Source: Candidatus Didemnitutus mandela (lineage in GTDB: Bacteria > Verrucomicrobiota > Verrucomicrobiia > Opitutales > Opitutaceae). Taken from it: a stretch of DNA of 64,000 nt. The position numbers were made by a program, and so were the translations under genes. The number at the start of each line of letters is the position of its first letter. The first letter of the stretch is position 1. The stretch is from NCBI GenBank assembly GCA_002591725.1, contig NJAL01000002.1:62001-126000 (forward strand). The letters run 5' to 3'. A model generated the notes under the pieces. That model made no database searches. It was given only the letters and a program-made list of their open reading frames with translations, and was not told the DNA's origin. Below, piece by piece: positions 1-64,000 of this stretch.

Positions 1-2537
1 CCAACGTTTGCCGCCCCTTCTTCGTCAGATTCAACAACCTTGGCAATCGCTAGCAGCTTGTCGCCCGCCTCAAGATTAACAAGCCGGACACCTTTGGCAC
101 CGCGACCGGTTTCCCGAATTTCCTTCACCCGCATGCGGATGCTTTGGCCCTTGGTTGTAAGAAGCATGACCTCGGCGGCATCGCAAACGCTAAGCGCACC
201 GGCGACGCTGACAGATCCATTTTCTGGCAAATCAATCGCGATCACACCTGTGCCACCGCGGCGCGTTAGGCGATAATCTCCAAATGGAGTACGTTTGCCA
301 ACACCATCTTCGCGGGCAACGAGCAAGCAGGATTCGGAGTCGCAAACTTCGATCGACTGCAAGTAGTCGCCACCTTTTTTGAAACGCATACCGATAACGC
401 CTCGGGTAAAACGACCTTGGGCACGTAATCCAAGTTTCTGACCGACCGCTTCGCCGTCGCTACTTTCAGCTACGGGCGTTGCGTCGGTGGATTGGGCCTC
501 GTCGCCTTCCTCTGCACCTTCAAAAAAGCGAACCGCTTGGCCTTGGTGTGAAACAAGGATGATCTGGCTCGAACCGCGAGTAAGCACGCAGCCAACGATG
601 GCATCGCCCTCAGCAATCTTCATGCCGCGGACACCACCTTCTCGCATCGCACCCTCATATTCGGCGAGCGCAGTTTTTTTAATTGCGCCTTCCTTAGTCG
701 CCATCACAACATAGTGGTCGAGTAAAAATTCTTTCACACAAAGGAGAGAGGCAAGCTTTTCACCCTGGCCAAGACGTAGGAACGAAGAGAAGGATTTCCC
801 CTTCGCCGTGCGCGTGCCTTCAGGGATATCGTAAACTTTCTTCGCGAGACACTGGCCGGTGCTCGTGAAGAAGAGCACATAGTCATGTGTCGAAGCAATA
901 AAGAGATTTTTGACGAAGTCCTTCTCGTAAGTCTCAGCGCCGATGATGCCCTTACCGCCGCGTTTCTGCGACCGGTATTCGGCAACCGGCGTACGCTTGA
1001 TGAAGCCAAAGTGCGAAACGGTAATGACTGCGCCGACATTCGGGATGACATCTTCCATGCGCAGATCTCCCGCATCGTCGATAATCTGGGTTCGGCGCGG
1101 CGAAGCGTATTTATCGCGAAGCTCCACGAGCTCTTTTTTGATCACTGCGAACAGCTTGTGCTCGTCATAAAGGATGCGTTGAAGCTCCTCGAGGAGTTTC
1201 ATCAGCTCGAGGTATTCAGCTTCGACCCTCGAGTGCTCGAGGCCGGTAATCTGGTAGAGACGGAGTTCGAGGATGGCGTCGGTCTGGCGTTCGGATAGCG
1301 GATACTTCGCCATCAAACGAGCCTTCGCGTCCTCGCGATTGGTAGAGGAGCGGATAATTTTGATGAAACCGTCGAGGTTATCGAGAGCAACAATGTAGCC
1401 TTCGAGGATGTGGGCACGGTCCTTGGCGCGGTTGAGGCGGAACCGCGTACGGCGCGTGACGACTTCGCGGCGGTGGTCGATATAGCACTCAAAGAGTTCC
1501 TTGACGTTCATCTGCTTTGGCCGGTTCTTGTGGAGTGCGAGCAGGATAACACCAAATGACGACTCGAGTGCCGTCTTTTGGTAAAGTTGGTTGATGACAA
1601 CTTGCGATTGCTGGCCGCGCTTCAACTCGATGACGATATACATATTTTCGTCAGACTCGTCGCGGAGATCGCGGATGCCTTCGATTTCCTTTGCACGCAC
1701 AAGCTCGGCAATACGAGTAACGAGCGAAGCACGGTTAACGTTATAGGGAATTTCGGTAATGATGATTTGTTCGTCGCCCCCCTTGAGCTCTTCAGTGTGC
1801 GCCTTGCCGCGAATGCGAACTATGCCCTTGCCGGTGGTTAGATAGGATTTGATGCCAGCGCGACCGTTGATGAAGCCACCGGTCGGAAAATCTGGGCCAG
1901 GAATGTAATTCGAGACTTCCTCGACGCTGATCTCCGGACGATCGATGATAGCGCAGGTAGCATCGATTATTTCCGAGAGGTTATGCGGCGGGATGTTCGT
2001 CGTCATGCCGACAGCAATGCCGGTAGAGCCGTTCATCAACAGGTTTGGTAGCGCAGCAGGAAGAATAGTCGGCTCGGTCGTTGATTCCTTGTAGTTGGGA
2101 GCAAAGTCGACCGTTTCTTCGTCAATGTCCTTCAGAAGTTCCTCGGCGATCGCGTTGAGGCGCGCCTCGGTATAACGGTATGCAGCGGGCGGATCGCCGT
2201 CGACAGAGCCAAAGTTTCCCTGCGGATCGATGAGCGGATAACGCATCACCCAGTTCTGCGCGAGGCGGACGAGCGTGTCGTAAACGGAGGAGTCGCCATG
2301 CGGGTGATAGTTTTTCAGCACTTCACCAACGACACCAGCGCACTTGTCGAAAACGCGGTTGTGAAGCAAGCCTTCGCGAAACATTGCGTAGAGAATGCGA
2401 CGCTGGACAGGCTTCAGGCCGTCGTTGGCATCCGGTAGCGCACGCGAGATGATGACCGACATCGAGTAATCGATGTAAGCCGTCTGCATAATGTCGGTAA
2501 TGTTGGCGATCGAAAGCTTTTCGTTCGCAGTATACAC
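1..2537 (-). CDS. gyrA: DNA gyrase subunit A, 3' end beyond the window
   Basis: Breakage-reunion subunit of gyrase, which introduces negative supercoils with GyrB. The frame is open from 2537 down to the left edge (about 845 codons, so nearly the full 800-900 of the family). The N-terminal half has the quinolone-pocket motif HPHGDSSVYDT and the active-site tyrosine context YRYTEARL. The GyrA box QKRGGKG near 945-965 marks it as gyrase rather than topoisomerase IV, followed by the C-terminal DNA-wrapping blades. The serine in GDSS matches the quinolone-sensitive E. coli Ser83. Start: no ATG or TTG exists between an in-frame TAA inside the gyrB end and the conserved domain. The first usable codon is GTG at 2537, giving VYTANEKLS, which fits the family's N terminus. 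No Shine-Dalgarno sequence is visible. It lies 49 bp downstream of gyrB and is presumably cotranscribed. Confidence 0.95.
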   Translation of the reverse strand, partial: MYTANEKLSIANITDIMQTAYIDYSMSVIISRALPDANDGLKPVQRRILYAMFREGLLHNRVFDKCAGVVGEVLKNYHPHGDSSVYDTLVRLAQNWVMRYPLIDPQGNFGSVDGDPPAAYRYTEARLNAIAEELLKDIDEETVDFAPNYKESTTEPTILPAALPNLLMNGSTGIAVGMTTNIPPHNLSEIIDATCAIIDRPEISVEEVSNYIPGPDFPTGGFINGRAGIKSYLTTGKGIVRIRGKAHTEELKGGDEQIIITEIPYNVNRASLVTRIAELVRAKEIEGIRDLRDESDENMYIVIELKRGQQSQVVINQLYQKTALESSFGVILLALHKNRPKQMNVKELFECYIDHRREVVTRRTRFRLNRAKDRAHILEGYIVALDNLDGFIKIIRSSTNREDAKARLMAKYPLSERQTDAILELRLYQITGLEHSRVEAEYLELMKLLEELQRILYDEHKLFAVIKKELVELRDKYASPRRTQIIDDAGDLRMEDVIPNVGAVITVSHFGFIKRTPVAEYRSQKRGGKGIIGAETYEKDFVKNLFIASTHDYVLFFTSTGQCLAKKVYDIPEGTRTAKGKSFSSFLRLGQGEKLASLLCVKEFLLDHYVVMATKEGAIKKTALAEYEGAMREGGVRGMKIAEGDAIVGCVLTRGSSQIILVSHQGQAVRFFEGAEEGDEAQSTDATPVAESSDGEAVGQKLGLRAQGRFTRGVIGMRFKKGGDYLQSIEVCDSESCLLVAREDGVGKRTPFGDYRLTRRGGTGVIAIDLPENGSVSVAGALSVCDAAEVMLLTTKGQSIRMRVKEIRETGRGAKGVRLVNLEAGDKLLAIAKVVESDEEGAANV

Positions 2538-2586
2538 GGGATAGAAATCGATGAGCGTTAACTTAAAGGAGACAAAACGGCGTGGC

Positions 2587-5354: not shown

Positions 5355-6080
5355 ATGTCGCACTCTCAAACTATGGCCGCCCTCAATTTGGAGAATCTGT
5401 TGATCTTGCAGGATCGCGACATGAAATGTCTACGGCTGGAGCAACAGCTGCAGGCCATCCCGCACGAAGTCGCCGCCTTGGAAGAAAAAATCGCCTCCGG
5501 GCAGCAAAAAATCCAGACAGCCAAGGCCGAATGGCTCGAACTCGAGACCAAAAAGAAGTCGCTCGAGAACGACATCAAGGAGGCCGAAGGAAAGGTCGAA
5601 AAATACAAGATCCAGCAACTTTTAGTTCGGAAAAACGACGAATACCAAGCCCTCATCCACGAAATCCAAACTATGATCGCCAAAATCGGCGACTTGGAGG
5701 AAGCCGAGATCAAGGTGATGTTCTCGATTGACGAGGCCAAACACCGCTTCGTCACAGCCGAAGCGGTGTTGAAAGCTAACATTGCCGGCCACGAAGAAAA
5801 AATTCGTGTTCTACGCACTCGCGACACCAACACCCGTGAGGAGCTCAAAGCCGCCAAAACCGAGGTCACCGCCGCGCGCAGGGTAGTGCCCGACGATTGG
5901 TTTCGTCCCTATGAGCGGCTCGCAAAATATCCCGGTTTTCCTGTCTGTGTGCCTATAAGAAGCGGTTGGTGCGGCGGTTGCCACATGAAGGTTTCCTCCA
6001 GCATCGAATTCGAAGCCTATCGCAGCGAAAACATTACCACTTGCGACCAGTGCGGGAGAATCGTCCATTGGGCAAAGTAA
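5355..6080 (+). CDS. Coiled-coil protein with C-terminal C4 zinc ribbon
   Basis: 241 residues. Residues about 10-180 are a long charged heptad-rich region expected to form an antiparallel coiled coil. The C terminus holds a four-cysteine zinc ribbon (Cys206, Cys209, Cys230, Cys233; motifs CGGC and CDQC). This is the architecture of the widespread zf-RING_7/DUF164 family (CT398/HP0958-like). Characterised members have been linked to flagellar mRNA or sigma-54 handling and to other nucleic-acid or protein-complex roles, so no specific function should be assumed. All four ligands and the coiled coil are intact, which in this eroding region argues for selection. Start chosen at ATG 5355. An internal ATG six codons later is an alternative. 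Confidence 0.85.
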   Translation: MSHSQTMAALNLENLLILQDRDMKCLRLEQQLQAIPHEVAALEEKIASGQQKIQTAKAEWLELETKKKSLENDIKEAEGKVEKYKIQQLLVRKNDEYQALIHEIQTMIAKIGDLEEAEIKVMFSIDEAKHRFVTAEAVLKANIAGHEEKIRVLRTRDTNTREELKAAKTEVTAARRVVPDDWFRPYERLAKYPGFPVCVPIRSGWCGGCHMKVSSSIEFEAYRSENITTCDQCGRIVHWAK

Positions 6081-6829: not shown

Positions 6830-7490
6830 TTCCCAGCATGGTAGCGCACAACAGGGTGCGGCTTCGCGCACGAGTTCGGCACCGGAGGACAATTGCGGTT
6901 CCTCCTAGGCTCGACCGCCGCAGACCTGGACCGCTTTAATGATCAGATTCAGCCCGTGGGCAACCTATCGCGTCGTCCGACTGTTCTTTAGGCTTAGGCA
7001 GCCAAGACATCCAGCTAGCTGTCGCTGAACAATTCGACGCTTGCGGAACCGCGCCCCCAATCAGCTATTTGGCCTAGAACTAGAGCGAGTAGCTGCAGAT
7101 TGGCAAACATCCGGTCGATACTGGACCGAACGAATCGCCTCGAGAATCCGATCTATCGCTTCGTGTCTCATCACATAGCCCCAAAGGCCCGTGCCGAAAG
7201 CGTGTTTCGCATAAAGCAGCTTATCGTAAACCAAAGAACGATCATCTGCGTGCCTGTGCCTAGCAGTTGTTCCGCAAGATCTTTAATCAAGGCCAATCCA
7301 GACGGTTGTTCCAGAGCTAGGTCAATGATGGCAACACAGGACAGGTCGATAAGCATCGCCGCCAGCGCAGCGGAAGTAGTGGTTTCCTCGCTACAAAACC
7401 AGAGATCGAGTTGCTAGTGAAAAGCTGCTGCCAACTACTCGCGCATCAAAGGATGATCATCGACAATAAAATTCGCGTTTTATAGGGATT
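6830..7490 (-). pseudogene. Response regulator relic (NarL/FixJ type)
   Basis: Read on the minus strand across frames. The receiver start is legible as FIVDDHPLMRE (near 7470-7440), followed by a TAG, then IDLALEQPSGLALIKDL containing the phospho-acceptor region. In another frame GYVMRHEAIDRILEAIRSV gives the end of the receiver. ELVREA near 6850 resembles the last helix of a LuxR-type DNA-binding domain. The order of fragments matches a receiver + HTH protein of about 210 residues. Several stops and frameshifts make it non-functional. The partner kinase was not found next to it; a kinase relic lies 13 kb away. Confidence 0.7.
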
Positions 7491-8372
7491 TTTTCAGAAG
7501 CTTCTAGCACACGCCTGTTTCGGCACCTGGCAATAGATACGCATACCAGCTCGGTATTGAGCTCCAGATGAACTCTAACCAGCAATAAAATATGGGGCAT
7601 TATTCGCAGCTTGCTCGTAAGTTTTCAGGCAAGCTCCTACAATCCAGCGGAAAGTTGATCAGGATCTATGGCAGTCAGCAACAAGCCGCGTGCAACCAAC
7701 AACCATTGTGCAATAGGATCGCGAATCTATATGCACAATGTTTTGCGTCTTTGGCCACAAGATCGGCGGCAAAGGAGATCGCCGTTAGGTGTTGTCCAAC
7801 TTTCGTGGCCGGACACTGCTGCGTTCACGATAGCTACGATACCTGATCGCGAACAGCTGCTCCTCTGCAGCTCGCCCTGTGTGCGCTACTAACTAGATGC
7901 GGATCTCCAATTGGCGCTGCAGAAACGTGAGCTCGTGCAGCATACTGCACCAACAAACAATAAGTGCTGAAATCCGCCAGCGGATTCAAAAACCAGCTGC
8001 AGCGCTGATCATGTAGCCATCCGCCGCAAAACCGGACGACACACGCACGACAACACTGGTAAAGATAAACACTGATAAATATAAACAGCCGGCCCCCAAA
8101 CAATCCAAGAGACACCAAGCACAATGGACGGGAAATAAAGCAACGATAAAGAGATCGTCGCGTCGGTCAGACAACCCATCCAAATGAAGAAAATGTTGGA
8201 CCGCCGGCGATGTCGCAAACCAAAAGATAATCAATTTGAGCACCGTCCGCCTTGGCAGGTTGTTTTCAGATGAGCCAGGAGAAACACGGTGAATAAACGA
8301 ACATGAAGAATTGGGCTAAGGTCTAGCAATTGTTCCTTGCCTTTTAAGGCCGCCTTCGCCACTTTGTTAACC
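7491..8372. other. Decayed DNA, no recognisable gene
   Basis: Only short frames on both strands. A minus-strand stretch around 8240-7990 is rich in hydrophobic residues and could be a dead membrane protein, but I cannot name it. Confidence 0.4.
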
Positions 8373-8787
8373 CTAGTTTCGGAGCCAGACCTTCGCTCCG
8401 TGTTCTTTGATCTCGGAGAGGAAAGTCCAGACACCAACAGGGCAGGATTCCGTGTGAAAATGCGGGCGCGGTGCGTAAAGGCATCGCAACGGAAAGTGTC
8501 ACAGAGAAAAAACCGCCGCGCGGCTTTCCGCGAGGTAAGGGTGAAAAGGTGGGGTAAGAGCCCACCGCGATCGTCAGTAATGGCGACGGCACGAAAAACC
8601 CAATCCGGTGCAAGACTAAATAGGAAACTCGACGGCCCGTCGAACAGTTTCGGGTTAGTCGCATCCGGCAGCTCGCTTCAACGCGCGATCACCGGGCAAT
8701 TCCGCTTAGGCGGAAGTTGAGAGAAATGAAGGTCAAAGCCCGCTTTGGCAGGCTTTACAGAATCCGGCTTATCGGCTGCGGGACTAG
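8373..8787 (+). ncRNA. rnpB: RNase P RNA, bacterial type A
   Basis: Catalytic RNA that trims tRNA 5' leaders. All conserved blocks are present in order: GAGGAAAGTCC at 8418-8428, the GGGTGAAAAGGTGGGGTAAG block near 8540-8560 that precedes a GAGCCCACC, GCAAGACTAAATAGG near 8611-8625, and ACAGAATCCGGCTTATCGG at the 3' side. P1 defines the ends: 8373-8386 pairs with 8774-8787, with one mismatch and G-U pairs. Length about 415 nt is normal. The universally conserved P4 helix carries unusual bases: A8431-T8763 replaces a G-C pair, and A8429 faces C8765. It is unusually well kept for this neighbourhood. A strong hairpin follows 33 nt downstream. Confidence 0.95.
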
Positions 8788-8858: not shown

Positions 8859-9985
8859 GCCCGGCTGCAACGAAGCGCCCCACACAAGCCGATGGGCATT
8901 TTCTTTCTCACAATGCATAATCTCGCGTTGTTGTTCATCGCTCAGTAAACTCACGGGATACATGTCGCTGCTTTTCTACAAGCGGTTTGCTTACCTTATC
9001 ACCTTGTACTCAGCACACATTTGATCGGCGTTGCCGGTTTGATCGCTATCTGCACATTTAACGTTGTTCACGCACGCCTCTCCCTAGGATACGATACCGG
9101 TCGTGCGCTCCGTAGTCAATAGCGGATGGCTGTTCGGGCAGCTTTCTTGTCCTGCTCCTCTGGTGGATGTGCTGGTCCCCGTGGAGCCCAACTTCGACGA
9201 CAGACAAGCTCTTTGGTGCAACCTTGTTCGCCAGCACCATGCTAGCCCGCCGGCATATGATAAGAGCTTCCTGTTCTCGGCTCTGATTTTAGAATGTTAC
9301 AGTGTCGTCGGTTTGGAACTCCGACTGAACGCCCTCCAAGGTGACAACACGATCCTGCGCATAGACGTGAGGTGGATCCAAACAATAACAGTAACCAGCG
9401 CCATCGGTATGCTACTCAAGCTGGCGTGGAGGTTTGATATCGGTCAACAAAAAATCGCGGTTGATCCAAGGTGCCAGCCTAGCAAACACGGATTTGGCTT
9501 TCTCACCAGTCAACCAGACCTTTGTCTCCCCGCATCGATGCCCGCTCCCCCTTCCCTTTCTCATTCCGCCACCCTTCTTGATCCGCACCCGCAAACGCAT
9601 CGACGGCATTTTCAGCGAACCCACCAAACGGCGTCTGGGAAAACTCGGGCAAGTGATCTAGCATAACAATCCAGCCGCAACCCACAATCACATCGGTCGC
9701 CACCTACTGCTGCACCCCCATCGCGACCATCAGCGAGTCGCCACTCGATAGATCCCGATTCAATCGCCCAGGGCATCTCCACACCGTCTTCAATATCGAA
9801 AGCATTTTTCTTCCCAACATTCGACTATTCCAAACGCCCCGCCTTCGAACTGGCGCTTGCCATGGCGGTCTCAACAGACCGCCACATGCACGAAGCTGAC
9901 ACGGCCGTGTGCATCGGAAACGAGTTCAAAGGCAACAAACACGGTTCCTTTTTTTTAACAGTAAGCCATTCGTCCACGGTAAAAC
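8859..9985. other. Decayed DNA, no recognisable gene
   Basis: Broken frames on both strands. A plus-strand frame at 9103-9666 is open for 187 codons but has no family features. The 9500-9985 part may be the rotted 3' half of the TauE/SafE relic that follows on the minus strand. Confidence 0.35.
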
Positions 9986-9989
9986 CGCT

Positions 9990-10211
9990 CGCCCTAGCAC
10001 CACGCAAGCGTCCCCCGAAAAATAGCACCGTCATCGAGTCGACCGATCAACAGGAGTGGCAGAACAACGCCAATCGCAATCTTCGCTGGCAACACGTTCG
10101 CAATCAAAGCAACGAAAAACACGCTAAAGCTAGGCACCTTGTTTTGTAGAAGCAAATCAACCCCCCCGCAACGAGCAACAGCCACTGCCAGGATGATGTC
10201 TCGGTCATCAT
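9990..10211 (-). pseudogene. TauE/SafE-type membrane permease relic
   Basis: Begins with ATGATG at 10211 behind a good ribosome-binding site (GGGAG). The N terminus reads MMTETSSWQWLLLVAGG, then in the next frame PSFSVFFVALIANVLPAKIA and GVVLPLLLIGRL. The ANVLPAK...GVVLPLL pattern is typical of the sulfite-exporter TauE/SafE (TSUP) family, an 8-9 helix carrier. Only the first two to three helices are legible; below 9990 the frame falls apart, and the remaining roughly 170 codons cannot be followed. Dead gene. Confidence 0.6.
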
Positions 10212-11070
10212 CAATCTCCCTCTTCTCGCAGTTGGCCGGCCTAAACCGTCAAAGCCTGCCATGCCGCTGCTTCCTCAGACAACGTTGTGCCTACCGCAAT
10301 TATCTGCGGCTCTCAATATCGAGCGAAGCCCCAAAGCACGCACGATGCACCGGACCTAGCTTTCCCAGGATGTCTGCCGCATAGCATCGGCTCAGCGCGA
10401 CGCTTTATCTTGAAATATGTCGCGTGCACCGTCACCAGCGCAAGCTGCTATCTTTCCAACGCGAACAGCTTTTCAGGTCACCCGCCCAGCAACAAATCGA
10501 GGTCGTCGCGATGCGATCCTAGTTCCGCCGTCTTCAACAATAGGTCGCATAGGTGCGTAGCTTCGGGCAATGGCTGCCGCTTGCGATCGAACCTTTGTTT
10601 TCGTTTTCATGCCCTGGGAATAGTCCAGCACCGCTTATTCACGGGTATCGGCCAACCGCTGATGACTCGTTTGGGAAAATTCGCTAAATTCCACCATGCC
10701 CAGCCCGCCGTTGCACAACCAACTTCACGACATGTTCCGCAGCTTCTTGTGCTCCAATGCCGTCATCGCCGCCACACGGTGCAGCAGCACTATTGCTTGG
10801 GCTGAAAAATTGACCGTGAAAAACTTACCAAATGAAGCTCGCAAACTTCGTCACCCGATTTTTTCTACTGCACATCGCAACCGTCGCAGCCAAACCCCAC
10901 AGTCACGCAGCTCTTGCCGAATTCCTACTGCTCGATCGCGAAGCCCAGCCCAATTTCCGCTTGGCGAAACGCCGCCCAGCGTCCGCAGCTCGGCCACGCA
11001 AAACGACTGAAAAACGTTACTTCTTACTATAACCGAACGCCTCGAGAAAATTTGTTTTCCTCTAACCATT
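10212..11070 (-). pseudogene. Relic of an unidentified protein upstream of the TauE relic
   Basis: Reading the minus strand across frames gives protein-like stretches, for example LRDRAVGIRQELRDCGVWLR, AIVLLHRVAAMTALEHKKL and REPQIIAVGTTLSEEAAAW. They end at a TGA overlapping the TauE start region, as in an operon. I do not recognise the family. The residue composition is helical and non-membrane. Several frame changes show it is not translated as one chain. Confidence 0.35.
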
Positions 11071-11349
11071 CAGCCGCACAAAAACGTTCTCCGCCCCGCT
11101 AGCTCAATACAAGCCAGTGGCAGATTTCGTAAATTTTAGAAGGCGGCCTTTGCAAAAAAACTCACCCAACCAATCGACTACCACCTTTCTCCGTCATTCC
11201 TTTTCCTGTCTTGCTTCATCTTAATCTTTCATTCCCTGCACCCCATAGTTTCCTACCCAATATCGCTAATTTTACGCAGCTAAAGCACCTCAAAGCGTTT
11301 CCTATCCTTGCGCCCCAGGTCTTTTTTTTGGCCATCTCCTCAATTTACC

Positions 11350-11907: not shown

Positions 11908-12164
11908 ATACCGAAGCAGCCATAGTAGAAGCAAATATATTAGCTTGAATGAATTGATCTAAAAAACGCCGCCCAACCTCGGCTCCGCAGAGACTGGATT
12001 AATCTACACAGCTACACACCTGACTCCTTTATTTTAGTGGAAGTTTGCGTCTTGCCTAGACAGCTTTAGTTTCTTTTTCTCCCCTTATTTCATCCTTTCC
12101 ATGATCCTTTCAATGGATGTCCCCTCTGCCCTGCCAACGAAAATTGAAGTGCTATCCGCCAAGG

Positions 12165-46169: not shown

Positions 46170-46215
46170 CTGCGTGGTCTGCTCGACCGCCGCTGGCGTT
46201 CAGCAGACCACGCAG
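46170..46215. repeat. Perfect 14-bp inverted repeat inside the CocE relic
   Basis: CTGCGTGGTCTGCT (46170-46183) and AGCAGACCACGCAG (46202-46215), separated by 18 nt. On the minus strand the two arms encode the LRGLL and ADHAG positions of the hydrolase. Confidence 0.9.
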
Positions 46216-46672
46216 CGAGAGAGCCACCACATATACCCCCCCGTTTTGTACTTTCCCCCTGAAAAAACACGGATGTCGCAAGCCCTAACTTCTCGAGATC
46301 AGCCCGCTTCGAGGCGTTGTAGAGCATGCAAGTGAGCACGGCGGGGCATGTGCTTCGCTGCCCGAGAGACGACGATGCACGTTCAGAGTTTCACGCTATC
46401 GCATATGGGAATCGCCACCTCACATTTCTTGTGACCGGATCCGGTCGTGGACACCTCCAAATGGCCCGGAATGTCTGAGGTCAGCCTCGGCATTTCACTA
46501 TTGCGCCATCATTCCATAACCACCTCAAAAAACCAGCTGTGCCGAAGATTTAATGGACAGCGTAATGACAGGCTCCGAGTTAGCTGACGATCTTCCAAGG
46601 AGACAGAGTCGTCCAGTTTCTTGGAGCGCTCCTGCTTGCCAAGTGGCAAAAGCTTGCCGATGATTTTCGTCC

Positions 46673-53751: not shown

Positions 53752-55857
53752 TCAGTTTTCTTCGCCTCCAACAAAGTAGAAGGCAAAGGCAAGCTTGTCC
53801 GCAGTTTCCTCAATTTGCTTGGAAATCGGTTTTCCGGCGCCATGACCGGCGTTGGTTTCAATCCGGATAAAAACCGGGCACCTTGCGTTCGGGTTGGCAG
53901 CTTGCAAAGCCGCCGCGAATTTGAACGAATGCCCCGGCTGCACCCTATCATCGTGGTCGCTCGTTGTAATCAAGACTGCTGGATAGTCGACACCCGCCTT
54001 CACGTTGTGCACCGGTGAATAGGACCGGAGATACGGGAAGTCCTCAGTGTTGTCCACAGATCCGTATTCGCTCGTCCACGCCCAACCTATCGTAAATTTT
54101 TGGAAACGCAGCATGTCCATCACGCCGACTTCCGGAAGCGCAACGTGCGCGAGGTCCGGTCGCTGGTTAATTATCGCACCCATAAGCAGGCCGCCATTGG
54201 AGCCTCCGCTTATGACCAGCTTCGCGTGCGCCGTGTAGCCTTGCGCGACGAGATAATCACCCGCCGCTGCGAAATCATCAAAGACGTTTTGCTTATTATG
54301 CTTCATCCCCGCTTCATGCCAGGCCCGGCCATATTCGCCGCCGCCTCGAAGATTCGCAACGGCATAGATTCCGCCGAGCTCGAGCCAGGCGATAGTCGAC
54401 ATGGAAAAGGAAGGCTGCAGCGAGATATTGAAGCCGCCGTAGGCGTAGAGCAGTGTGGGATGTGAACTGTCCAGTTTTACCCCCTTTCGCATGGTAATGA
54501 ACATCGGAATGTTCGTGCCATCCTTCGACGCATAGAAGGCCTGCTTCGTTTCGTAAAGTGCCGGGTCGAAAGCCACCTTCGGGGCCTGAAAGACCTCGAC
54601 TTTCCCCGTGGCAAGATCGCAGCGGTAATTGGTGGTGGGAAAAACAAACGACGTGAAATTGAAGAACATTTCATCTTCGTCGTAGCGACCGCTAAGCGAA
54701 GCAACCGTGCCGATGCCCGGGAGCGCAACGTCGCCAAGTAATTTCCCCTCCAGCGACGATAGCTTAAGTACGCTGTACACATCGTGCATATAGTTGACGA
54801 CGATTTTCCCACCAATTATCCTGGAGGATTCGATGACGTCGGCTGTTTCCGGAACGATGGTTACCCAATTTTTCTTTTCCGGGGCGGCAAGGTCAATAGC
54901 GAGAATCTTGCGATGCGGCGCCTCGTAATCGCTTTCCACAAAGATTACAGAGCCACGATTGCCGATGACGTTGTAGCTGGCTTCCATCACGTTGATCAGT
55001 TTGAAGACCGGTGCGGAAAGATCCGGAACGGTCGGGTTCTTCAGATCGAGATAATAGAGACAGTTTTGCTCTCCCGTGCCTTCGCTGCCATAGATGAAAA
55101 GGTAGCGTCCATTGTCGGACACCGAGGCCGACCATCCACGTTTCGGGAACTCGGGCAAAGCAAAGATCAACTGATCTTGAGGTTGGGGTGTACCAAGCCG
55201 GTGGTAGTAGATCTGCTGGTTTGCAAGGTCGCTGAAGGTTTTGTCGCCGCCGCCCTTCGTTTCAGGAAAGCGCGAATAAAAGAAGCCACCGTTGTCGCGC
55301 GTCCAGCTCATGCGAGAAAACTTCACCCACTTAATTACATCGAGTATATCCATGCCCGTGGAGATGTCCAAGACGCGAAACTCGTTCCAGTCCGAGCCGG
55401 CCGACGAAATCCCATAAAGCAGCCATTTCCCGTCCTCCGAAGCAGCAAAGCCGGTGAGCGCCACGGTTCCGTCCTTTGAAAACTTGTTTAAGTCGATCAA
55501 GAGCCTTCCCGCGTCACCCAGCGTTTCTCTAACATAGAGAAGCGACTGATTTTGCAAGCCACTGTTGAAGCTATAGAAATATTTTCCACCTTGCTTGTAA
55601 GGCAGGCTATAACGAGTATAATTTAGCAGTTCCTGGAAACGAGCCTTAATTGTATCACGCTGGGGCAGTTTAGCGAGAAAGCCGAATGTTACATGGTTTT
55701 CGCTTTGTATCCAGGACTTGGTCGCAGGCGAATCGGCATCCTCCAGCCAGCGGAATGGGTCGGCGACTTTCGTTCCGAAGTAATCGTCGGTCTGGTCGGT
55801 AGCGCAAGTGACGGGATAGTTCCAGGTCGCAGGAAAAGCAAAAGTGGAAGCAGCCAT
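53752..55857 (-). CDS. Prolyl oligopeptidase, S9A family
   Basis: Serine peptidase that cleaves short proline-containing peptides. 701 residues, a normal length. The N-terminal part (DPFRWLEDADSPATKSWIQS) and the seven-bladed propeller are followed by the alpha/beta-hydrolase domain with the catalytic triad: Ser553 in GGSNGG, Asp in DHDDRV (634-637) and His672 in NAGHGAG. The start reads MAASTFAFPATW without a signal peptide, so it is probably cytoplasmic, although some relatives are exported. It has its own terminator. A dead tandem copy of the same family lies directly upstream on the same strand (57820-55936), so one paralogue was kept and one lost. The retained copy has no frame damage. 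Confidence 0.95.
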   Translation of the reverse strand: MAASTFAFPATWNYPVTCATDQTDDYFGTKVADPFRWLEDADSPATKSWIQSENHVTFGFLAKLPQRDTIKARFQELLNYTRYSLPYKQGGKYFYSFNSGLQNQSLLYVRETLGDAGRLLIDLNKFSKDGTVALTGFAASEDGKWLLYGISSAGSDWNEFRVLDISTGMDILDVIKWVKFSRMSWTRDNGGFFYSRFPETKGGGDKTFSDLANQQIYYHRLGTPQPQDQLIFALPEFPKRGWSASVSDNGRYLFIYGSEGTGEQNCLYYLDLKNPTVPDLSAPVFKLINVMEASYNVIGNRGSVIFVESDYEAPHRKILAIDLAAPEKKNWVTIVPETADVIESSRIIGGKIVVNYMHDVYSVLKLSSLEGKLLGDVALPGIGTVASLSGRYDEDEMFFNFTSFVFPTTNYRCDLATGKVEVFQAPKVAFDPALYETKQAFYASKDGTNIPMFITMRKGVKLDSSHPTLLYAYGGFNISLQPSFSMSTIAWLELGGIYAVANLRGGGEYGRAWHEAGMKHNKQNVFDDFAAAGDYLVAQGYTAHAKLVISGGSNGGLLMGAIINQRPDLAHVALPEVGVMDMLRFQKFTIGWAWTSEYGSVDNTEDFPYLRSYSPVHNVKAGVDYPAVLITTSDHDDRVQPGHSFKFAAALQAANPNARCPVFIRIETNAGHGAGKPISKQIEETADKLAFAFYFVGGEEN

Positions 55858-56071
55858 AAGGAGAGTCGTAAATGGACCAGTTTTGTGTTAGAATCTTATT
55901 TGGATAATACGCTCCAAACCAAACCCCATACGGAGCAACTAATCGTCGAACACTTTTGAAACCGGAGGCAAGCCGTTTGGGCTGCCGCTACCGACATTCC
56001 CCCGATGTGGGTTATGATTATGATCGAACTGCTTTGTGGGTCAGCCATACGCTTGCACCGCGACCGTATAT

Positions 56072-56093
56072 TTATAGGAGCGTTATAGGAGCG
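56072..56093. repeat. 11-bp tandem duplication in the oligopeptidase relic
   Basis: TTATAGGAGCG occurs twice in direct succession. The unit is not a multiple of three, so it shifts the frame of the dead gene. Confidence 0.8.
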
Positions 56094-57485
56094 TGCAGAA
56101 GAACCCCCAGTAATCGTGATCGTCCGCGGTGACAAGCATAGAGGTATACTTCGCCCCTCTCTTCACGGTGTGCACCAGAAAATGTTTCACGATATAACTG
56201 AAGATATCCCCAGCGCCAGAATCGCCCTAGCCAGGGGCCCAGACAGAATAAACTGTAAATTTGTAGTAGCAAAACATATCCATCACCCCAATCGCAAACA
56301 CCGCTACCGCACAGAAGTTCGGACGCTAATTGACGACCTCTCCAACAAGCAGGCCACTGTTGGAGCGACCATAAAGGACCTGTTTGTCGTGTGATGTGTA
56401 ACCATTTGCGCAAACTTAATCGACAGCAGCAATGTAGCCATCGAAGACGTTTTGCTTGTTCGCCTTCGTTCAGGCTCGCTGTCAATCTTCTCCACGCCTC
56501 CTCGCTCGATCCAGACAAGCAGCGACACCGCAAGCCGCGGTTTCATCACAATGTGAAGGCCCCGTAGCCGTATAACCAGTCCGGTGTGTTTCAGTTCACG
56601 CTTATGGACAACAAAATGAGGGATCTTCGTCCCGGCCTTGCTTTTTCAGAAGGTCTGCTCGATCTCGTAGCCGGCGAAGAAAAACTGCAGGCCCGTCTGA
56701 TGCTGATGCCACGCTCCAGTATCAGCAGGTGCTTAGCTCGTAGCGCAGGATCATTCCAGAATTCAGGAACGAGGGGAAGTCGACAAAAGCCTCGTGATCG
56801 TCGAACTTGCCGCGCAGAACCGTTGCGCTGTCGTAAGACGGTAATAGAATTTTTCGGGCAGAAGCATCGTCAAGTCGGCATGGCAATGCGGTTGACCACA
56901 TTGTACAGATAAGCGAGGATAAAGCTGCCTGCGGAAATCCGTACGAGTTCAATAGTGCCGTCCCTTTCCGCGACGATCGTCTGCCAGTCAGCCGATGCGC
57001 CAAAGTTCGCAGCAGTCTATGATCGGTACCGTTCTCGAAATAGAACTTTCCCCGGTATTTACCAGAAACGAATAGTGATGTTCGAAAATTTTCCACTAGG
57101 ATGATAACTTTGCCGCCGAAATCGGGTGCCCTTCGCTAAAACCGAGATAAGCGGCTATTCGCCTGGGTATCCCCAGGGACGCGGCCGTGATCACGACATA
57201 GCAGCCGTTAGACGACACGGTTGTATCGAAAAGCTGTTTCGGATGCTCTGGGAATGCGAAAATTAGCTTACTCTCGTTTTGCAGCGCGCCTAGACGGTAA
57301 TAAAAAAAGCCTTTGGCTCGCAAGTTTTCTGAACACCATTCGGGTTTCCACCCAGAAGCGCCGGGGAACACGCGTAGTAAGGAGCCAGCGTTATCTTGGT
57401 GTCCAGATCAGATCGGAAAGCTTCACGAGATTGACAACGTCTTTGCTCTTCATCCTTCTGGCCGCCCTCCGAATATGGAATTAAC

Positions 57486-57522
57486 TACAGTCTTTGCCCC
57501 GGCCGCCGGGGCAAAGACTGTA
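57486..57522. repeat. Perfect 17-bp inverted repeat in the oligopeptidase relic
   Basis: Arms 57486-57502 and 57506-57522 are exact reverse complements (ACAGTCTTTGCCCCGG core) around a 3-nt centre. It overlies the codons equivalent to the GISSAGSDW segment of the intact copy, where the intact gene has only a 6-bp palindrome (GCCGGC). Confidence 0.9.
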
Positions 57523-57820
57523 ACGGAGCCACTTTACAGTCGACGAGGACGGAGTCACCACCAAAGCCGATGATACCGTCAATCAAGAACGTGTTCGGAT
57601 CGATCAACACACGAGGCGTGCCATCCAAACTACTTTGCACATAGAGCGGCGACTGGTTTAAAAAACGCCGTTTTTTATAAAAATACCAGTCGGCCTCCTT
57701 TTTCGGAACGCCGACTCGCAAATAATTCTACAATTCAGTCAATTGCTGTCTCACATCGGTTCGTTCCAGCATCTTTTCTAAAAAAGCGTCGGTAAAAATG
57801 TTTTGCGCCGCCATCAAAAT

Positions 57821-59172
57821 TTGGACACCAAGAGAATCGAAGTTTTATCGGCCATCGATAAAAATCGGCAATTTTGTTTCCCCAACTTGATCGACTTTTT
57901 AAAGGTGGGGTATTTTTTCACTCGGTCAGCTATCACCGATAGCAAGGTCAGCACCGACGCCGCCCAGCGAGGGAACTTCAGCCCCCCGCTCCAATCGGAA
58001 GCTGCCGCATCCCCAATTTCAGCATTAACCTTCGCCGCTTTCAGGGGAACATACGCAGACCTTCGTCAATTAAAGCTAATGTCACCAGTCTCCGTAAAAA
58101 GCCAGCGAGACTAGCACCTCGATTTCTTTTGCGAGCTGTCGCTAATTACGATTGGTATCAGCCATATTGTCAGCCTGTTTCAGATGGTATCGGGCGAACC
58201 CCGCTCGACTTCGTCAGCGGTACGGAGGAGGTCGTTTTTCTCTCCGAACTCACCGGCGGCCTGGTTTATGTATGGCTCTGGCTTACCCAAAACACGCAGG
58301 ACCGCAACAGACACCGCGTTCTTGTGTGCTGGCACAGCACTTATCTGTGCGACCTGTGCCACATCGAGCTTTTTAGCGGCTTCTTTGCGTGGACGTAGAA
58401 GTTCAACGCCATGACCGAGTACTTAGCCCAAAACTCCACCGAACCGCTGCTGTTAGACCCCCTACCGATACATGAGGTCTTCTTGACACTGCTGCCGGCC
58501 ATTTTACTCACCTTGTTCGAAAAAAAGCGCCTGTAGTATCCTGATGGCCACACTTCCCAGCTGACTGCTGATTAATCTGTTAGTGCCCCAAAACTCCGAT
58601 CGTCGCTGGCCTGATCCAAGGTAGCGTTTTTAGCTGAGGTGCCTGGCAACTCGTTTTCGCTGTCGGCGTGATCTTCAGCGCCGCCTGGATGGCACGATGA
58701 ACAACTGCTTCAGCCGAGTCATCGCAAGCTGTTTTCTCTCGCTTTTCCGTTGGTGATCACAGGCTTCCTTTTCGGCTAAACCTATTCCCCCGAATTTCCG
58801 CAATTTGGTTGACCGGCCAACAAAAAAAGTTTCGCCTAGTTGAGACTTCTGAGTGTTTCCACACCCTTCTACTTTTTGTCTGTTCCACATCCCCATCGTA
58901 TTGTGGCTTCGATCCTGTAGCTGGCGCCCGCTCTCCTTCCTTGGGCAAGCTACTCGCTCAACATCTTTACGGTGCACGTGCTCGCCCTATCTACATGCTT
59001 TTTCGAAATATGTCGCAAGCACGCGGCGCAACGCTTGTCGGGGAAGCTCCTGATAATTAAAGTGATTTTTACCACCGCTACTGTCAGTGATGCATGGGGA
59101 AATTCCGCCAAATGAGTCTCGCTTTGTCTACAATCGTCCCCAGCCACGTTCTAAGCCGTTTTAACCGCTCGC
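57821..59172. other. Decayed DNA, no gene named
   Basis: Short hydrophobic plus-strand fragments near 58400-58520 (EPLLLDPLPIHEVFLTLLPA) suggest a dead membrane protein. No family. Confidence 0.35.
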
Positions 59173-59760
59173 ATGGGAGCCAAATTGCCGTTTCCCCCTC
59201 CTCGTCTGGCAGATTTCTCTACCTTCGGAGACTGGTTGGCCCGCCAACTGCAGCTCGCCATCGAAGTCGACAAACTAAAAACCGCCTTGCGATGCACCCG
59301 CCTTGCTAACTACTTCTGTTTTGGAAACGGCGTCAAACACGCCCAAACTCGATTGATCTGGCTGGCGTGGTAAAGACGCTCCTCGTCCAGCTCGACGCAG
59401 GCGACACTTTAGGCTACTATGCTATGTAGCCTAGACACGCTAGCAAGTCAGAGCGTACTTTCGGTCTTTTCCCGCCTATCAAGCAGCTGAGCTTCGCGCG
59501 TTGTAGGTAGGGTAGGACGAGTTTGAGGCCACAGCGACACCGGAAGCCAAACTCACGCTCGAGATAGACCGCCTCCAAGGCTTTCTGCTTAACCTCGCCA
59601 CCAAAGGCAGTTCATAAAAAGAGGATCACGTCACCCTCGACAAGGCACTCGCCCGCAACTCCGTAATCAGCGCAAATGAGTCTGCAGTTTGGACAGAGCA
59701 TCTATGAGGCCGCGCAGCTCCGGGGCCCCATGCTGCTAGGCCCACAACCTCTGTCTGAGC
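59173..59760 (+). pseudogene. HD-domain phosphohydrolase relic (YfbR-like)
   Basis: Starts at ATG 59173 and is open for 66 codons: FSTFGDWLARQLQLAIEVDK with LKTALRCTRLANY and KHAQTRLIWLAW, where the first HD-family histidine region (ENDAEHSWH) is altered. A TAA follows. Later frames give QLDAGDTLGYYAM, FGLFPAYQAAELRAL, FEATATPEAKLTLEIDRLQG with FLLNLATKGSS, and NSVISANESAVW. This matches the HD_3 / 5'-deoxynucleotidase group of about 200 residues. The metal-binding HD doublet is not readable. Confidence 0.75.
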
Positions 59761-62700
59761 GAGCACGGTGTTCTAATTTAGATCGCAAAAGACTCAGAAC
59801 TCCAGATCAACAAGGCAGCGACAGATGTACACGATCGTTCCATCCCTCTGCTAAGCGATATAGCTGTTTGGCCGTCTACATTTTTTCATCAAGTTGTTTT
59901 TTCGCATCGATCAAGCGACAAACGTTGATCAGGAGAGTTTTTACGATTCGTTCGAAGCCGTCTAGCATAGCTATCCCAAGCTGCACCAAACAGGGTATTG
60001 AAAGCCGTGAGCGTCTGTATGCGAACTGCTCAAACTGAGAAGTCTCGAAAATGATGTCGTTTCCCATTTTTAAAAGCACAACCTTTGGCCAGTGATTCCA
60101 GCACGAGAACTAGCTAAAATCGACGGCGATTCGTTTTCGACACCATAAAGTTATACCGTACCTTCATGAAGGTACCGATTTTGCACGGAAAAATGATCTC
60201 CAACCTGCCGCGGAAAAGAGCGTGTCTATGTTTCGCTGTTCCGTTACACTAATTGGTTCGCCTGCAGCCCAGAACTAAACCCGTTCGATTGTAAGGAACA
60301 CTGCGCGCAACACCATCGACAATGCCATTGAGAAAAGAAAGAATAGACCGCGTCGCCGACTCAATACATGAGCTGGCACTCGGCGCTCTTGCAATCGCTC
60401 AATGTATTGCCAAGCATCAGCAATGGCGGGAATATGCAAGCCGCAGAATACCGACTTGCAAACCAAGTTCATGCCAATCGTACATCGTAGATTAATTAAG
60501 CTTAGCAGCAGTAGAAACTCGATGTAAAGCTTTTTATTTCAACACGCTATCCGAGCAGCACACGCCAGCTGCATATCCTTGACACCCACTTTGCTTCTAC
60601 TCCTATACTTCCTATACTTATACTCCTAAAACCGTCCCGCAGAGTAGATGCAAGATCTACGCGTTGACCTCGAAGCCGCGCAACGTTTTGTCAGCTCCTG
60701 CAGCGTGCGCTCGCTAGAGCGCACAGAAGAGAAGTTGTTCGAGGCAGCTTGCCAATCAACGAGATTGGAATCGATGAAAAAGTTTTGCTAAATAGCCTGG
60801 CGCGAATAGGAGAAAAATGAAAGACTAAGCGCCCAATTTACGCCATTTTTATCGAATATCCTATAAAAGTCATATTCACCACTGAAAATATCTTTATCTT
60901 CGACCGCAGTTTCCGGAACGCATGCACATAAATAAATGATGTTGTCGACCTGAAACAGCGGGCGATAATTCGCTTTTCGTACTTTGCTCCATTCCGCATT
61001 ATCAAAAGTTTTATAGAAAACGTTTTGCAATACGCTTCGTTCTATAAAAACAGGACTTTATGTGTATTAACAATGCCGCACTTCCTTACTTCCTTCTCTG
61101 TATCGGGCTAATCGTGGTTAGGCTGGCTAGTCTCAGCTATTTTCCCTGCTACCGTTTCGCATCTTTTCGCTTCCACCGATCTGTTCAAGATCAAACATCT
61201 CTATTCGCCCACCCTTTCGCTTGACAGCAATCCTCTTCCACGGCAACTTCCCCCGCAGCAGCGGCTTGAGCAACTCGAGCTCCTTCTAGAGCTCTAACGG
61301 AAGCCAACTCGTCCTCATGTGCGCTATCAGAAAGGTGAAACTGCAAGCCTATCTTTTCGCTATCCCCTGTGACGAAGCCCTGCTGTTTACCAAAATAGAA
61401 ATCAGCTCCGGTGATACGCATTGGTAGCCAGATTGCTCGTAAATGCTCTTCACCTCTCTTCTAAATTACGCCCATGTCCGGTTAGCTCTCAACGAAAGTA
61501 GTAAAGTAGTAAAGTAGTAAAGACAACAGTCCTAATTGACTAGAAGGAAAGCATGGATATTAGCCCAACGACTCCTAAAAGGAATAAAAAGTAAATAAAT
61601 ATCCCAAAAGGGAAGTCTAGAGTCAAAAGAGAAATTTACCAGCGTCAAAGCCGATCGTGGCCGCTCGCTCGCTAAACGCGGGGAGTGTATAGCTAAAAAC
61701 GAGACCGATGGAAATCCATCGCGTCTTCAATCGCTTAAGCTTTTTCAGCCAATGGATACCAATATCTGAGCGTACCTTCACGCACATCTTCGTTCAAGAG
61801 ATCCCTGGTTAGCACACGAGCGCTGTCGATCTTCTATCCAGGCTACACCAGCACCGCGGTCCAGAGTGGCTTCCCGTGGGAAAGTCGTTTTGTCCAAGGA
61901 AAACCAACAATCAAGCCAGAACCCCGACCACGTTGAAAGCGGTAGCCCTTACCGCATCAATACCAAAAGTAAGAGCATCACACTCTTCACCGGACTCGAC
62001 AGCTACGGCTGTAAACTCTGTCTCGCCCATCTTTCTACCCATCAACCCGATGGGGAGCACGTAGCGCTGGCCGCATCGTCCGAGAAAAACGAGGGGCACT
62101 CCGCCCCCCTACTGTCATGCACGCCACCGGAGGTAAACCCTCTTTCCCTTCTTTGTTGACAGCGAAGCAAGGTCGCTCCGCTTCCAACTTCAAATAGGCA
62201 TCCGACAGAAGCCAGGGTTGTTGCGCTGCCGCCAGCTAGATAAGATTCCACTTTTTGGAAGTCGACGCCCACAACGTTGAATTCTCGCACGTTACCGTCA
62301 ATAAGTGGGTGCCGAAGCGCTATTATTACAACGTCGATACTACTTCGGCTCAGCGGAGTCCTGACCAAGGCCAGACGACCCCCTAAAAACTTTATGCAGG
62401 CACAACCGCTATCTCTGATAGCCTCATACAACTCCACAGAGCTGAAATGATTGAAAAGAAAAAATTGACTATCTACGATAGCCCACGAACTTACTGTCTC
62501 GACGGCTTCAAAATTTAATACTGGGCAATGAAGCCGACCGACTCCTCGCTGAACAAGAACACCCACTGTTTCTTCGAAATCCACGATGGGCCGCCCGTTA
62601 TTTAGGGCCCAGAGCGAAGACAGGATGTGGCTCGAGTTTTAATTTTTCGTCGCACAAAAATTACTTTATTTTTATAAATCATTAACTGTAATATTATTAA

Positions 62701-63351
62701 TTTGAAACGCTTTAATAATACTAACACGCAGATTTTCAAAGCTGGCACGCAGGCCCACCCGACAACGTTCTCAGAGTAGCCGACAGGGCTGCTGCACAAG
62801 TGTTTATCGACAAGGATCGCCAGACCATGACCAGCAGCTACTCGAATGGGCTAGATCGTAGGCCCGACCATTGTTTCAAAGCGGCTGTAGCCCAAGCCCC
62901 AGTGCCGCGTTTACGATCTCGCGACGTTCTTCTGCGAAGGTAAACGCGTAGCAGCTCGCGTCTTCCGGCGACTATCCTTGACAATCGGAAATTCGGAACC
63001 CCCTCGAAAACAGCCCCCTTTATTTAGGCCGAAAAAATTACAACGCCGCTGCGTCTCCAAACACAACGGCAACAATCGCCATACAGGTGTACAAAGGGAA
63101 ATGATGCCCAAAGCTTCAAAGTGCTGGGGCGAAGCCCTAGAGTCCTAGCGCCACCCATAAGCCCAGCCGCAGCGGCGAAACCTAGCAGCGCATCGATATA
63201 TCCTAGCACGTTACGATGGGTTTCCCAGCGAGCGCTACCTAGAACAAGGCTAAGTCCAGGTGTGTCCTATGCGGACTAACAGATTCATTATCTATTTTTT
63301 GTGTTTGCGATTCCTAACACACATACAGTCTTTCTATCTTCCTTCGCTCCC
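59761..63351. other. Decayed DNA, no gene named
   Basis: 3.6 kb with nothing I can place. The 180-codon minus-strand frame at 62584-62042 has no recognisable family. Short tandem repeats occur at 60602-60624 (CCTATACTT units) and 61495-61522. Confidence 0.35.
61495..61522. repeat. Short tandem repeat, 8-bp unit
   Basis: AAAGTAGT repeated three and a half times without mismatch. Confidence 0.85.
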
Positions 63352-63876
63352 ATGTTTTATACTACATTTCCAACCAAGTTTGGCTTTTCTGGCTTCGCTT
63401 GGAACGAGGTCGGCTTAACTGCATTCAGCCTACCCGAAGAAAATATCGATGAGGTTGCAACAAGGCTGCAACAGAACGGTGAGCCGAAGGCCCCGGACGG
63501 AAACATTCCATTCCCTCTTAAAAGCCTTATTCAACGCGTACAAAATCATCTAGAGGGTAACCTACAAGACTTTGTCGACTTGAATCTCGACTGGACTAAT
63601 TTGAGCGACTTCAAACGCGATGTCTACTTGGAAACAAGGTCGATCAAACCGGGCTTAAAAAAAAGCTATGGCAATATCGCCCGTGCGCTCGGTCTCGGCG
63701 CGAAAGGCGCCCAAGCCGTCGGCGCCGCGCTTGGCAGAAATCCTTGGCCCCTTGTTGTGCCTTGCCATCGTGTGGTTTCCGCCTGCGGGAAAATGACCGG
63801 TTTTTCAGGTCCAGGCGGCATCCGAACCAAGGCGCGCCTACTCGCCCTCGAAGGAGCGGAGCTGCTCTCCGAGTAA
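63352..63876 (+). CDS. ogt: Methylated-DNA-protein-cysteine methyltransferase
   Basis: Suicide repair enzyme that takes O6-alkyl groups from guanine. 174 residues from ATG 63352; the frame opens at a GTG 17 codons earlier, but the extra residues are non-conserved. The C-terminal DNA-binding domain has SYGNIARALG and AVGAALGRNPWPLVVPCHRV, with acceptor Cys138 in PCHRV, then GKMTGFSGPGGIRTKARLL. An N-terminal ribonuclease-like domain precedes it. Complete active site. A direct-repair gene kept in a gene-poor region is consistent with selection for minimal DNA repair alongside mfd. Confidence 0.93.
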   Translation: MFYTTFPTKFGFSGFAWNEVGLTAFSLPEENIDEVATRLQQNGEPKAPDGNIPFPLKSLIQRVQNHLEGNLQDFVDLNLDWTNLSDFKRDVYLETRSIKPGLKKSYGNIARALGLGAKGAQAVGAALGRNPWPLVVPCHRVVSACGKMTGFSGPGGIRTKARLLALEGAELLSE

Positions 63877-64000
63877 AATTCGGTTTTGTTTTCTCTTATC
63901 CAACAGCACTTCGCCTATCTCAGCGCGAGCGATCCTCGATCCTATTTGGGCAAAGCTGATCACGCGCGTTGGTGCCTTTATATTTGGGCTACGTCCGAAA

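Follow-up and report, generated by a model that had tools for sequence, protein, structure and literature searches.

What has happened to a part of a bacterial chromosome in which little more than a quarter of the DNA still encodes intact proteins? The question is raised by a stretch of 64,000 nucleotides (hereafter the window, meaning the whole stretch that was analyzed) from the tunicate symbiont 'Candidatus Didemnitutus mandela', positions 62,001 to 126,000 of contig NJAL01000002.1 in assembly GCA_002591725.1. A previous reading of the bare letters (the sequence-only reading) had taken it for DNA of a Verrucomicrobiota symbiont with real pseudogenes in their ancestral order, which is supported by synteny with related genomes and by alignments to them.

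The explanation we favor, with a probability of about 0.87, is neutral decay of an ordinary symbiont chromosome with partial large deletion, in which inactivation is largely past and the unattributed DNA mostly consists of decayed genes. The window would then be an ordinary chromosome part of the mandelalide-making symbiont, whose move into the host presumably removed selection from most genes. In the dead genes, neutral point mutations and small insertions and deletions (indels) would have accumulated up to a level that simulation puts at about 0.2 substitutions per site. Synteny shows that some regions also lost DNA in large deletions, while others, the parA-ogt block among them, have kept their dead DNA near full length.

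Intact and disabled genes

References came from four relatives of the same genus (G001, G005, G008, and G012); DNA matches guided the choice of stretches, in which 341 genes were called. By tblastn, these genes gave 209 hits on the window at E ≤ 1e-4 and 0 on the reversed window; the fragments thus do have homologues in relatives. Frameshift-aware alignment identified 21 pseudogenes, the lowest score being 106 versus a highest shuffled or reversed control of 57. With more reference open reading frames (ORFs), a second run brought in one more, at 8928-9429, so that 22 genes count as disabled and 14 as clean; three extra fossils came to light outside the 22 (one through wider references in a search of 80 loci, two through Pfam). 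Pseudogenes whose orthologues are intact in relatives number 22 in the window and 44 over the three regions dated below.

The sequence-only reading had counted 14 protein genes, two tRNAs, and rnpB as intact, which is borne out (gyrA leaves the window at the left edge, so its end lies outside the view). Its figure of about 28% coding agrees with the 18,129 of 64,000 bp (28.3%) taken up by intact protein genes; rnpB and the two tRNAs (573 bp) bring the share to 29.2%. Its tally of at least fifteen former genes was an underestimate, given 22 pseudogenes and hints of three more. The fragments do lie in family order, as contig C19 of G005 shares the order parA-rnc-mfd-surA-tRNA-cls-plsY-POP-ogt (POP, prolyl oligopeptidase). 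By length, the window divides into intact protein genes (28.3%), the 21 pseudogenes (31.2%), RNA (0.9%), and unattributed DNA (39.6%).

Among the named losses are recF, alanine dehydrogenase, dihydrofolate reductase, threonine synthase, aspartate kinase, two beta-galactosidases, gluconokinase, a histidine kinase, radC, dGTPase, and several peptidases. The idea that ParA was kept and ParB broken was rejected: the broken neighbors of parA are ABC-2 membrane proteins. In the list below, family names of intact genes come from Pfam (10 proteins) or, where stated, from PDB sequence matches (4 proteins), and pseudogenes from frameshift-aware alignment.

3..2537, minus: gyrA, open frame over the window edge, PDB match to gyrase A, 0 disablements in 816 codons
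2587..5106, minus: gyrB, intact by frameshift-aware alignment, PDB match
5373..6080, plus: C4 zinc-ribbon coiled-coil protein (C4zn), intact, hairpin with 12-bp arms at 5740-5770
6860..7795, minus: fossil, perhaps response-regulator-like (weak Pfam Response_reg match, E 0.0014); tblastn to ORFs of loci L056 and L055, E 1e-19 and 9e-6, reversed control 0
8377..8787, plus: rnpB, Rfam RF00010, 222.7 bits
8928..9429, plus: pseudogene of a 199-amino-acid protein encoded near rnpB in G001, score 227, 5 frameshifts
9965..10187, minus: TauE/SafE permease fragment, pseudogene
10217..11156, minus: recF pseudogene, 10 frameshifts and 7 stops
11350..11907, plus: SIS-domain protein (gmhA-like), intact
12110..12625, plus: cyclophilin peptidyl-prolyl isomerase, pseudogene
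12652..13234, minus: unnamed 572-amino-acid protein, pseudogene, score 106 (weakest of the 21; own control maximum 49)
13193..14103, minus: alanine dehydrogenase, pseudogene
14246..14770, plus: dihydrofolate reductase, pseudogene
14801..15328, minus: hexapeptide-repeat protein, intact, presumably gamma-carbonic-anhydrase-like
17921..18742, plus: metallo-beta-lactamase-fold (MBL) hydrolase, intact
18763..19566, plus: 3-hydroxyisobutyrate/2-hydroxy-3-oxopropionate reductase family, pseudogene
19623..20974, plus: sensor histidine kinase, pseudogene
21099..21173, plus: tRNA-Cys
23368..24604, minus: GH42 beta-galactosidase, pseudogene
24621..26153, minus: GH2 beta-galactosidase (GalB-like), pseudogene
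30023..30358, plus: gluconokinase, pseudogene
30479..31303, plus: parA-type ATPase, intact, 84% identity to G005
31381..32264, plus: ABC-2 family membrane protein, pseudogene
32278..33086, plus: second ABC-2 family membrane protein, pseudogene
33092..33805, plus: rnc (RNase III), intact, PDB match
33974..37219, plus: mfd (transcription-repair coupling factor), intact
37300..38259, plus: SurA-like rotamase, intact
38373..39033, plus: radC pseudogene, perfect palindrome with 17-bp arms at 38713-38752
40108..40194, plus: tRNA-Tyr
40195..45052, no strand: longest unattributed stretch, period-3 power 0.97 versus 0.74 in the shuffle, no Pfam match below E 0.03
45053..46484, minus: CocE/NonD (X-Pro dipeptidyl peptidase) hydrolase, pseudogene, palindrome at 45584-45607
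46673..48127, plus: cardiolipin-synthase-type PLD protein (cls), intact
48168..48670, minus: threonine synthase, pseudogene aligning to residues 13-180 of 452
48732..49713, minus: aspartate kinase (lysC), pseudogene, palindrome at 49254-49273
49782..50405, minus: plsY, intact, PDB match
51928..52458, plus: RND-family (AcrB-like) fossil, Pfam ACR_tran E 9.6e-7, 27.3 bits, just below the 28-bit cut-off
53752..55857, minus: prolyl oligopeptidase (POP), intact
55918..57881, minus: second prolyl oligopeptidase (POP2), pseudogene, perfect palindrome with 18-bp arms at 57486-57522
58783..59088, plus: OpgC-like fossil, Pfam OpgC_C E 6.5e-5, 22.5 bits versus a cut-off of 21.4
59230..59692, plus: HD-domain phosphohydrolase, pseudogene
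59776..61027, minus: dGTP triphosphohydrolase, pseudogene
61163..63241, plus: S9 peptidase (Dpp5-like), pseudogene
63349..63876, plus: 6-O-methylguanine-DNA methyltransferase (ogt), intact

The best named relative of gyrA comes from 'Candidatus Didemnitutus sp.' (84%), and the guanine-plus-cytosine (GC) content of the window is 51.4%. Third-position GC of the intact genes (0.54-0.67) lies above the 50% GC of the dead DNA across the window, which indicates that the codon choice of working genes is not yet at dead-DNA composition. On the plus strand of positions 8001-64000, GC skew is steadily negative and adenine-thymine skew mostly positive, which may mark the lagging strand; the GC skew is -0.124 in unattributed DNA and weaker, at -0.042, in genes.

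Genuine decay and its age

Pooled, the 21 pseudogenes carry 197 frameshifts and 105 stops (302 lesions) in 6,470 codons at a protein identity of 47.3%, compared with 3 frameshifts and 1 stop in 6,032 codons at 71.9% for the 14 intact genes; the lower identity may partly reflect genes that were less conserved from the start. All 4 lesions in the intact genes belong to the MBL hydrolase and cls, close to where their alignments begin, and both genes are clean with other references.

Decay was dated in three regions, i.e., the window and two 20-kb stretches termed L164 and L162. Since a hunt for young pseudogenes by codons only had confused frameshifts with gene boundaries, L164 and L162 were redone with orthologues. 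Over the three regions 71 genes were matched, of which 44 are disabled and 27 clean. A load below 1.5 lesions per 100 codons is seen in only 2 of the 44 dead genes, a 75-codon fragment and the gene at L164:1884-2529. Neutral decay was simulated with 10 intact genes as starting points; the observed identity, frameshifts, and period-3 signal are bracketed near a distance (d) of 0.2 substitutions per site, with a fitted rate of 0.05-0.1 indels per substitution, and 28 of 30 simulated genes are still detected at d = 0.4. The dead genes show no significant differences in lesion density (P 0.86 within the window, 0.24 for the 44 genes). Lesion counts plateau above about 0.2-0.25 substitutions per site, and older ages are therefore not distinguishable. 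As clean intact genes lie interspersed and very few dead genes are fresh, the inactivation wave appears to be largely over.

Two other accounts of these lesions have to be weighed. That they represent mistakes of assembly or sequencing in genes that still work is scarcely credible, even though they were judged from the assembled sequence and the assembly is metagenomic, its completeness being listed as 74.5%. Errors would have had to spare the 14 interspersed genes, which hold no internal lesion, and the dead genes also show lowered protein identity and codon periodicity; the part of the genome paper used here further describes an Illumina/SPAdes assembly (PMC5698493). On this evidence, the frameshifts and stops are best read as genuine decay. 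The second account, gene death at a steady rate up to now, is unlikely but deserves serious attention. It matches the sequence-only reading's picture of a genome caught in mid-erosion and the ongoing degradation described in the published account, as far as the part used here goes (PMC5698493). A fairly fresh pseudogene may sit at L164:1884-2529 (65% identity, 3 frameshifts in 216 codons, covering the first third of a 712-amino-acid reference), and 6 of the 44 dead genes have fewer than 2.2 lesions per 100 codons. Pooling the three regions, log-likelihoods of -111.5 for a single age (d = 0.185) and -111.4 for ages above 0.06 stand against -114.1 for ages uniform from zero, and the 14 intact window genes without internal lesion likewise speak against steady loss. 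Several points weigh against a finished wave: uniform ages from 0 to 0.4 trail a single age by only 2.6 log units for the 44 genes, L164 alone fits both equally well, and the simulated stops at d = 0.2 (1.1-1.4 per 100 codons) fall below the observed 1.62. The dating is also a simple simulation with one starting identity and, in its first run, one replicate per setting. With about one of 44 dead genes looking fresh, mid-erosion seems overstated, and the view that inactivation is largely past while slow decay continues has moderate support.

Deletion and the order of loss

The sequence-only reading also held that the DNA was inactivated and not yet deleted. This holds for the parA-ogt half of the window, where the block measures 33.4 kb versus 35.7 kb in G005 (contig C19). 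Elsewhere it does not: from gmhA to the carbonic anhydrase, the window has 4.0 kb where G005 has 7.1 kb and G001 14.5 kb, and the L164 and L162 blocks measure 18.6 and 19.4 kb versus 48.7-53.6 kb in G001 and G008 (2.5-2.9 times shorter), the two largest genomes among those compared. Relative to G005, the L162 block is 15.3 kb against about 24.2 kb. The whole genome is smaller than those of relatives (2.17 Mb versus 3.6-5.5 Mb in seven same-genus genomes that are >90% complete).

Because of these large deletions, recognizable fragments under-represent early losses. The fragments seen are those not yet deleted and with a sampled orthologue, and their lesion counts plateau; the window thus gives no order of loss and leans toward later losses, so that it cannot be read, as had been proposed, as a record of which functions are lost first. 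The scarcity of deletion in some parts may plausibly follow from a lack of repeats and insertion sequences together with the loss of RecF and other recombination genes. The recF loss is shown in the window; the part of the genome paper used here reports recF missing from the genome and is the source for the other recombination losses (PMC5698493).

Unattributed DNA and orphan reading frames

Insertion-sequence expansion is typical of early-stage reductive symbiont genomes. Here, DDE_Tnp_1, the single transposase family searched, had no match genome-wide, and blastn over the non-coding part of 444 kb found no repeat family resembling insertion sequences, although strongly diverged copies would escape such a search; the absence of an insertion-sequence carpet noted earlier thus stands, and unattributed DNA in the form of inserted repeats was rejected on the blastn result. 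Self-comparison of the same non-coding DNA turned up four weak pairs, 51-76 bases long, besides 13 self-palindromes.

The unattributed 40% of the window is most likely decayed coding DNA, as its period-3 power (1.01) equals that of the pseudogenes (1.04) and exceeds the shuffle (0.70; other periods 0.68-0.80). Most of it would be additional decayed genes that have no orthologue among the relatives sampled, and wider references and Pfam each turned some of it into recognizable fossils. Some observations weigh against this. The six-frame Pfam scan matched little of the DNA (six unattributed stretches were scanned in six frames and 57882-59229 in three, with 39034-40107 outside the scan), so the genic origin leans on periodicity, for which the relatives' intergenic DNA proved unusable as a control (2.72, probably through real genes missed by the gene caller). 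In the sensitivity control, Pfam matched 4 of 5 known pseudogenes, one weakly, and matches of E 0.03-0.6 were treated as chance. DNA matches inside the unattributed DNA were reported for none of the four relatives among the up to 40 candidates scored per genome; for some relatives this limit means that weak matches may be missing. At 44710-44793, a very weak match (E 0.034) to a 4'-phosphopantetheinyl transferase N-terminal domain was seen.

Could this DNA instead be expanded mobile or repeat DNA, or could the short ORFs within it be real genes? The former is highly improbable, despite extra DNA where genes adjoin in relatives: the plsY-POP gap (50406-53751) spans 3.35 kb in the window and about 0.14 kb in G005 and G012, and the C4zn-rnpB gap (6081-8376) spans 2.3 kb versus ≤543 bp in 46 of 50 loci with both genes (80 loci searched). 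These gaps hold the RND-pump fossil and the possible response-regulator fossil, respectively; with the OpgC fossil, the pseudogene-like periodicity, and the lack of any high-copy family or DDE_Tnp_1 match, they argue for old genes, and the part of the published annotation used here lists no transposases (PMC5698493). The orphan ORFs raise the second possibility on a genome-wide scale, since 1,922 of 2,864 predicted genes are given as lacking homologues (mean 259 bp, i.e., about 86 amino acids), next to 226 truncated genes (PMC5698493, in part), and TRGdb (2023) ranks the species second among bacteria by share of species-specific genes (1,898 of 3,060), mostly reading them as real, fast-evolving genes, with the remark that some may be pseudogenes (PMC10410690, in part). 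That reading is very unlikely, although one observation favors it: in the nonfunctional DNA, the excess of ORFs over shuffles grows with ORF length. Counting every overlapping ORF (which is not an annotation), the window, L164, and L162 hold 218, 52, and 76 ORFs of at least 60 amino acids versus 170, 45, and 59 in shuffles, 86, 20, and 38 versus 60, 14, and 21 at the orphan mean length of at least 86 amino acids, and 21, 8, and 15 versus 15, 3, and 5 at 120 or more, where the excess is clear. Chance alone would thus supply most ORFs of orphan length, and left-over codon structure accounts for part of the excess. ORFs of at least 60 amino acids in the window pseudogenes are also near-equal on the former coding strand (44) and the opposite one (41), and codon-model scores per kb are about zero in pseudogene and unattributed DNA. 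Decayed genes with chance ORFs remain the preferred explanation; some of the longest orphan ORFs may be real genes that have no orthologue in the sample.

Coding density

Bacteria usually have a coding density of 85-90%, far above the 28.3% of the window. Low density extends beyond it: over 18 other single-copy stretches (360 kb), a codon-model caller assigned 38.4% to working genes (range 10.5-69.8%). The caller recovers 13 of the 14 window genes (27.0% of the window) and called nothing in 120 kb of shuffled sequence; in L164 and L162, its 38.5% and 22.8% agree with orthologue-defined intact DNA of 6,782 and 4,374 of 20,000 bp. Including a 20-kb stretch of contig C1, which scored 0, lowers the share to 36.4%; it was left out because C1 is a multi-copy polyketide synthase (PKS) contig. 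C1 (108,264 bases) holds 18 of the 21 ketosynthase matches of the assembly (2,171,216 bases in 10 contigs), in line with the published description of 2.17 Mb, 10 contigs, an N50 of 319.6 kb, 51.93% GC, and a 108-kb PKS contig (PMC5698493, in part). The same source, in the part used here, puts the coding density of the single-copy contigs at 64.3% (a table footnote has 63.4%). The difference from our figure of about 38% appears to stem from the 1,922 ORFs without homologues, many of which resemble chance ORFs. The second rank in species-specific genes is probably in large part an annotation artefact, and if many such genes are artefacts, rankings of this kind need a pseudogene filter.

Palindromes and template switching

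Several pseudogenes contain perfect hairpins, with arms of 18 bp in POP2, 17 in radC, 12 in cocE, and 10 in lysC, and of 19 and 14 bp in pseudogenes at L164:4481-4518 and L162:12137-12166. At these six sites, the relatives have imperfect palindromes with 6/17 (35%) to 9/12 (75%) of arm pairs complementary, where the symbiont has all complementary (the relatives' alignments at the POP2, lysC, and L162 palindromes are partial or weak). The hairpin in the intact C4zn gene likewise lies at an imperfect palindrome of relatives (8/12 to 9/11 pairs complementary). Arms of at least 10 bp occur 9 times in 36,083 bp of pseudogenes from the three regions versus 12 times in 395,942 bp of the relatives' coding DNA (P 2e-5), and arms of at least 12 bp 5 versus 2 times (P 7e-5). 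In the searches for hairpins, shuffled sequence served as the control, as sequence reversal cannot test palindromes.

This pattern suggests that template-switch mutation may have made perfect palindromes in several dead genes. Quasipalindrome-associated template switching is a known mechanism in E. coli, in which imperfect inverted repeats turn perfect, as at several symbiont pseudogene sites; as far as the part of that work used here goes, it concerned reporter genes, whereas the symbiont would offer a natural record in dead DNA, seen by orthologue comparison only (PMC7202029). Within the titles and abstract openings of open-licence literature covered by a term search, no description of template switching in a symbiont genome was found. 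Some results pull the other way: unattributed DNA holds only 2 palindromes with arms of at least 10 bp and 0 of at least 12 in 38,743 bp, the relatives' intergenic DNA is also palindrome-rich (26.6 per 100 kb), and the arm-length thresholds were picked after inspection. A total excess over relatives was not seen for arms of at least 10 bp (37 in 424 kb versus 35 in 482 kb). In 16 other stretches, 194 kb of non-coding DNA holds 8 hairpins with arms of at least 12 bp, of which 4, lying no more than 100 bp from a called gene, are possibly terminators. Loss of SbcCD as the cause was rejected: SbcD exceeded the cut-off in 0 of 12 genomes (the symbiont and 11 relatives), so its loss is not symbiont-specific and not the explanation, the cut-off being strict (passed by 8 of 14 control genomes; three relatives have weak matches). 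The recA gene is open and complete in the symbiont genome. We give slightly less than even odds to the tentative idea that the dead two-thirds of the genome form a mutation-accumulation record, with a largely synchronous cohort at about 0.2 neutral substitutions per site and template-switched palindromes with arms of up to 19 bp.

Comparison with known systems

In their massive pseudogene loads, Sodalis glossinidius and Mycobacterium leprae resemble 'Ca. Didemnitutus mandela'. Early erosion of the Sodalis type is accompanied by mobile-element expansion, whereas none was seen here, and the genome shows that most of a symbiont's DNA can be dead even where no mobile-element carpet is evident. The erosion of the genome was published by Lopera et al. 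in 2017, and its low coding density and pseudogenes are therefore already known; the part of that account used here also reports no transposases and a missing recF, in agreement with our results (PMC5698493). Added here are the corrected coding fraction, a measure of decay, the likely coding origin of the dark DNA, the doubt about orphan genes, and the palindrome lead. A close parallel is 'Ca. Endolissoclinum faulkneri', which likewise lives in a tunicate, produces a cytotoxin, and combines low coding density with much dead DNA, according to the same partial source (PMC5698493). Its dead DNA has fallen to 24.7% GC and its pseudogenes are hardly recognizable (PMC5698493), whereas those of 'Ca. 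Didemnitutus mandela', at 50% GC, are readable and may serve as a neutral record of substitution, indels, and perhaps template-switch mutation, rather than of the order of functional loss.

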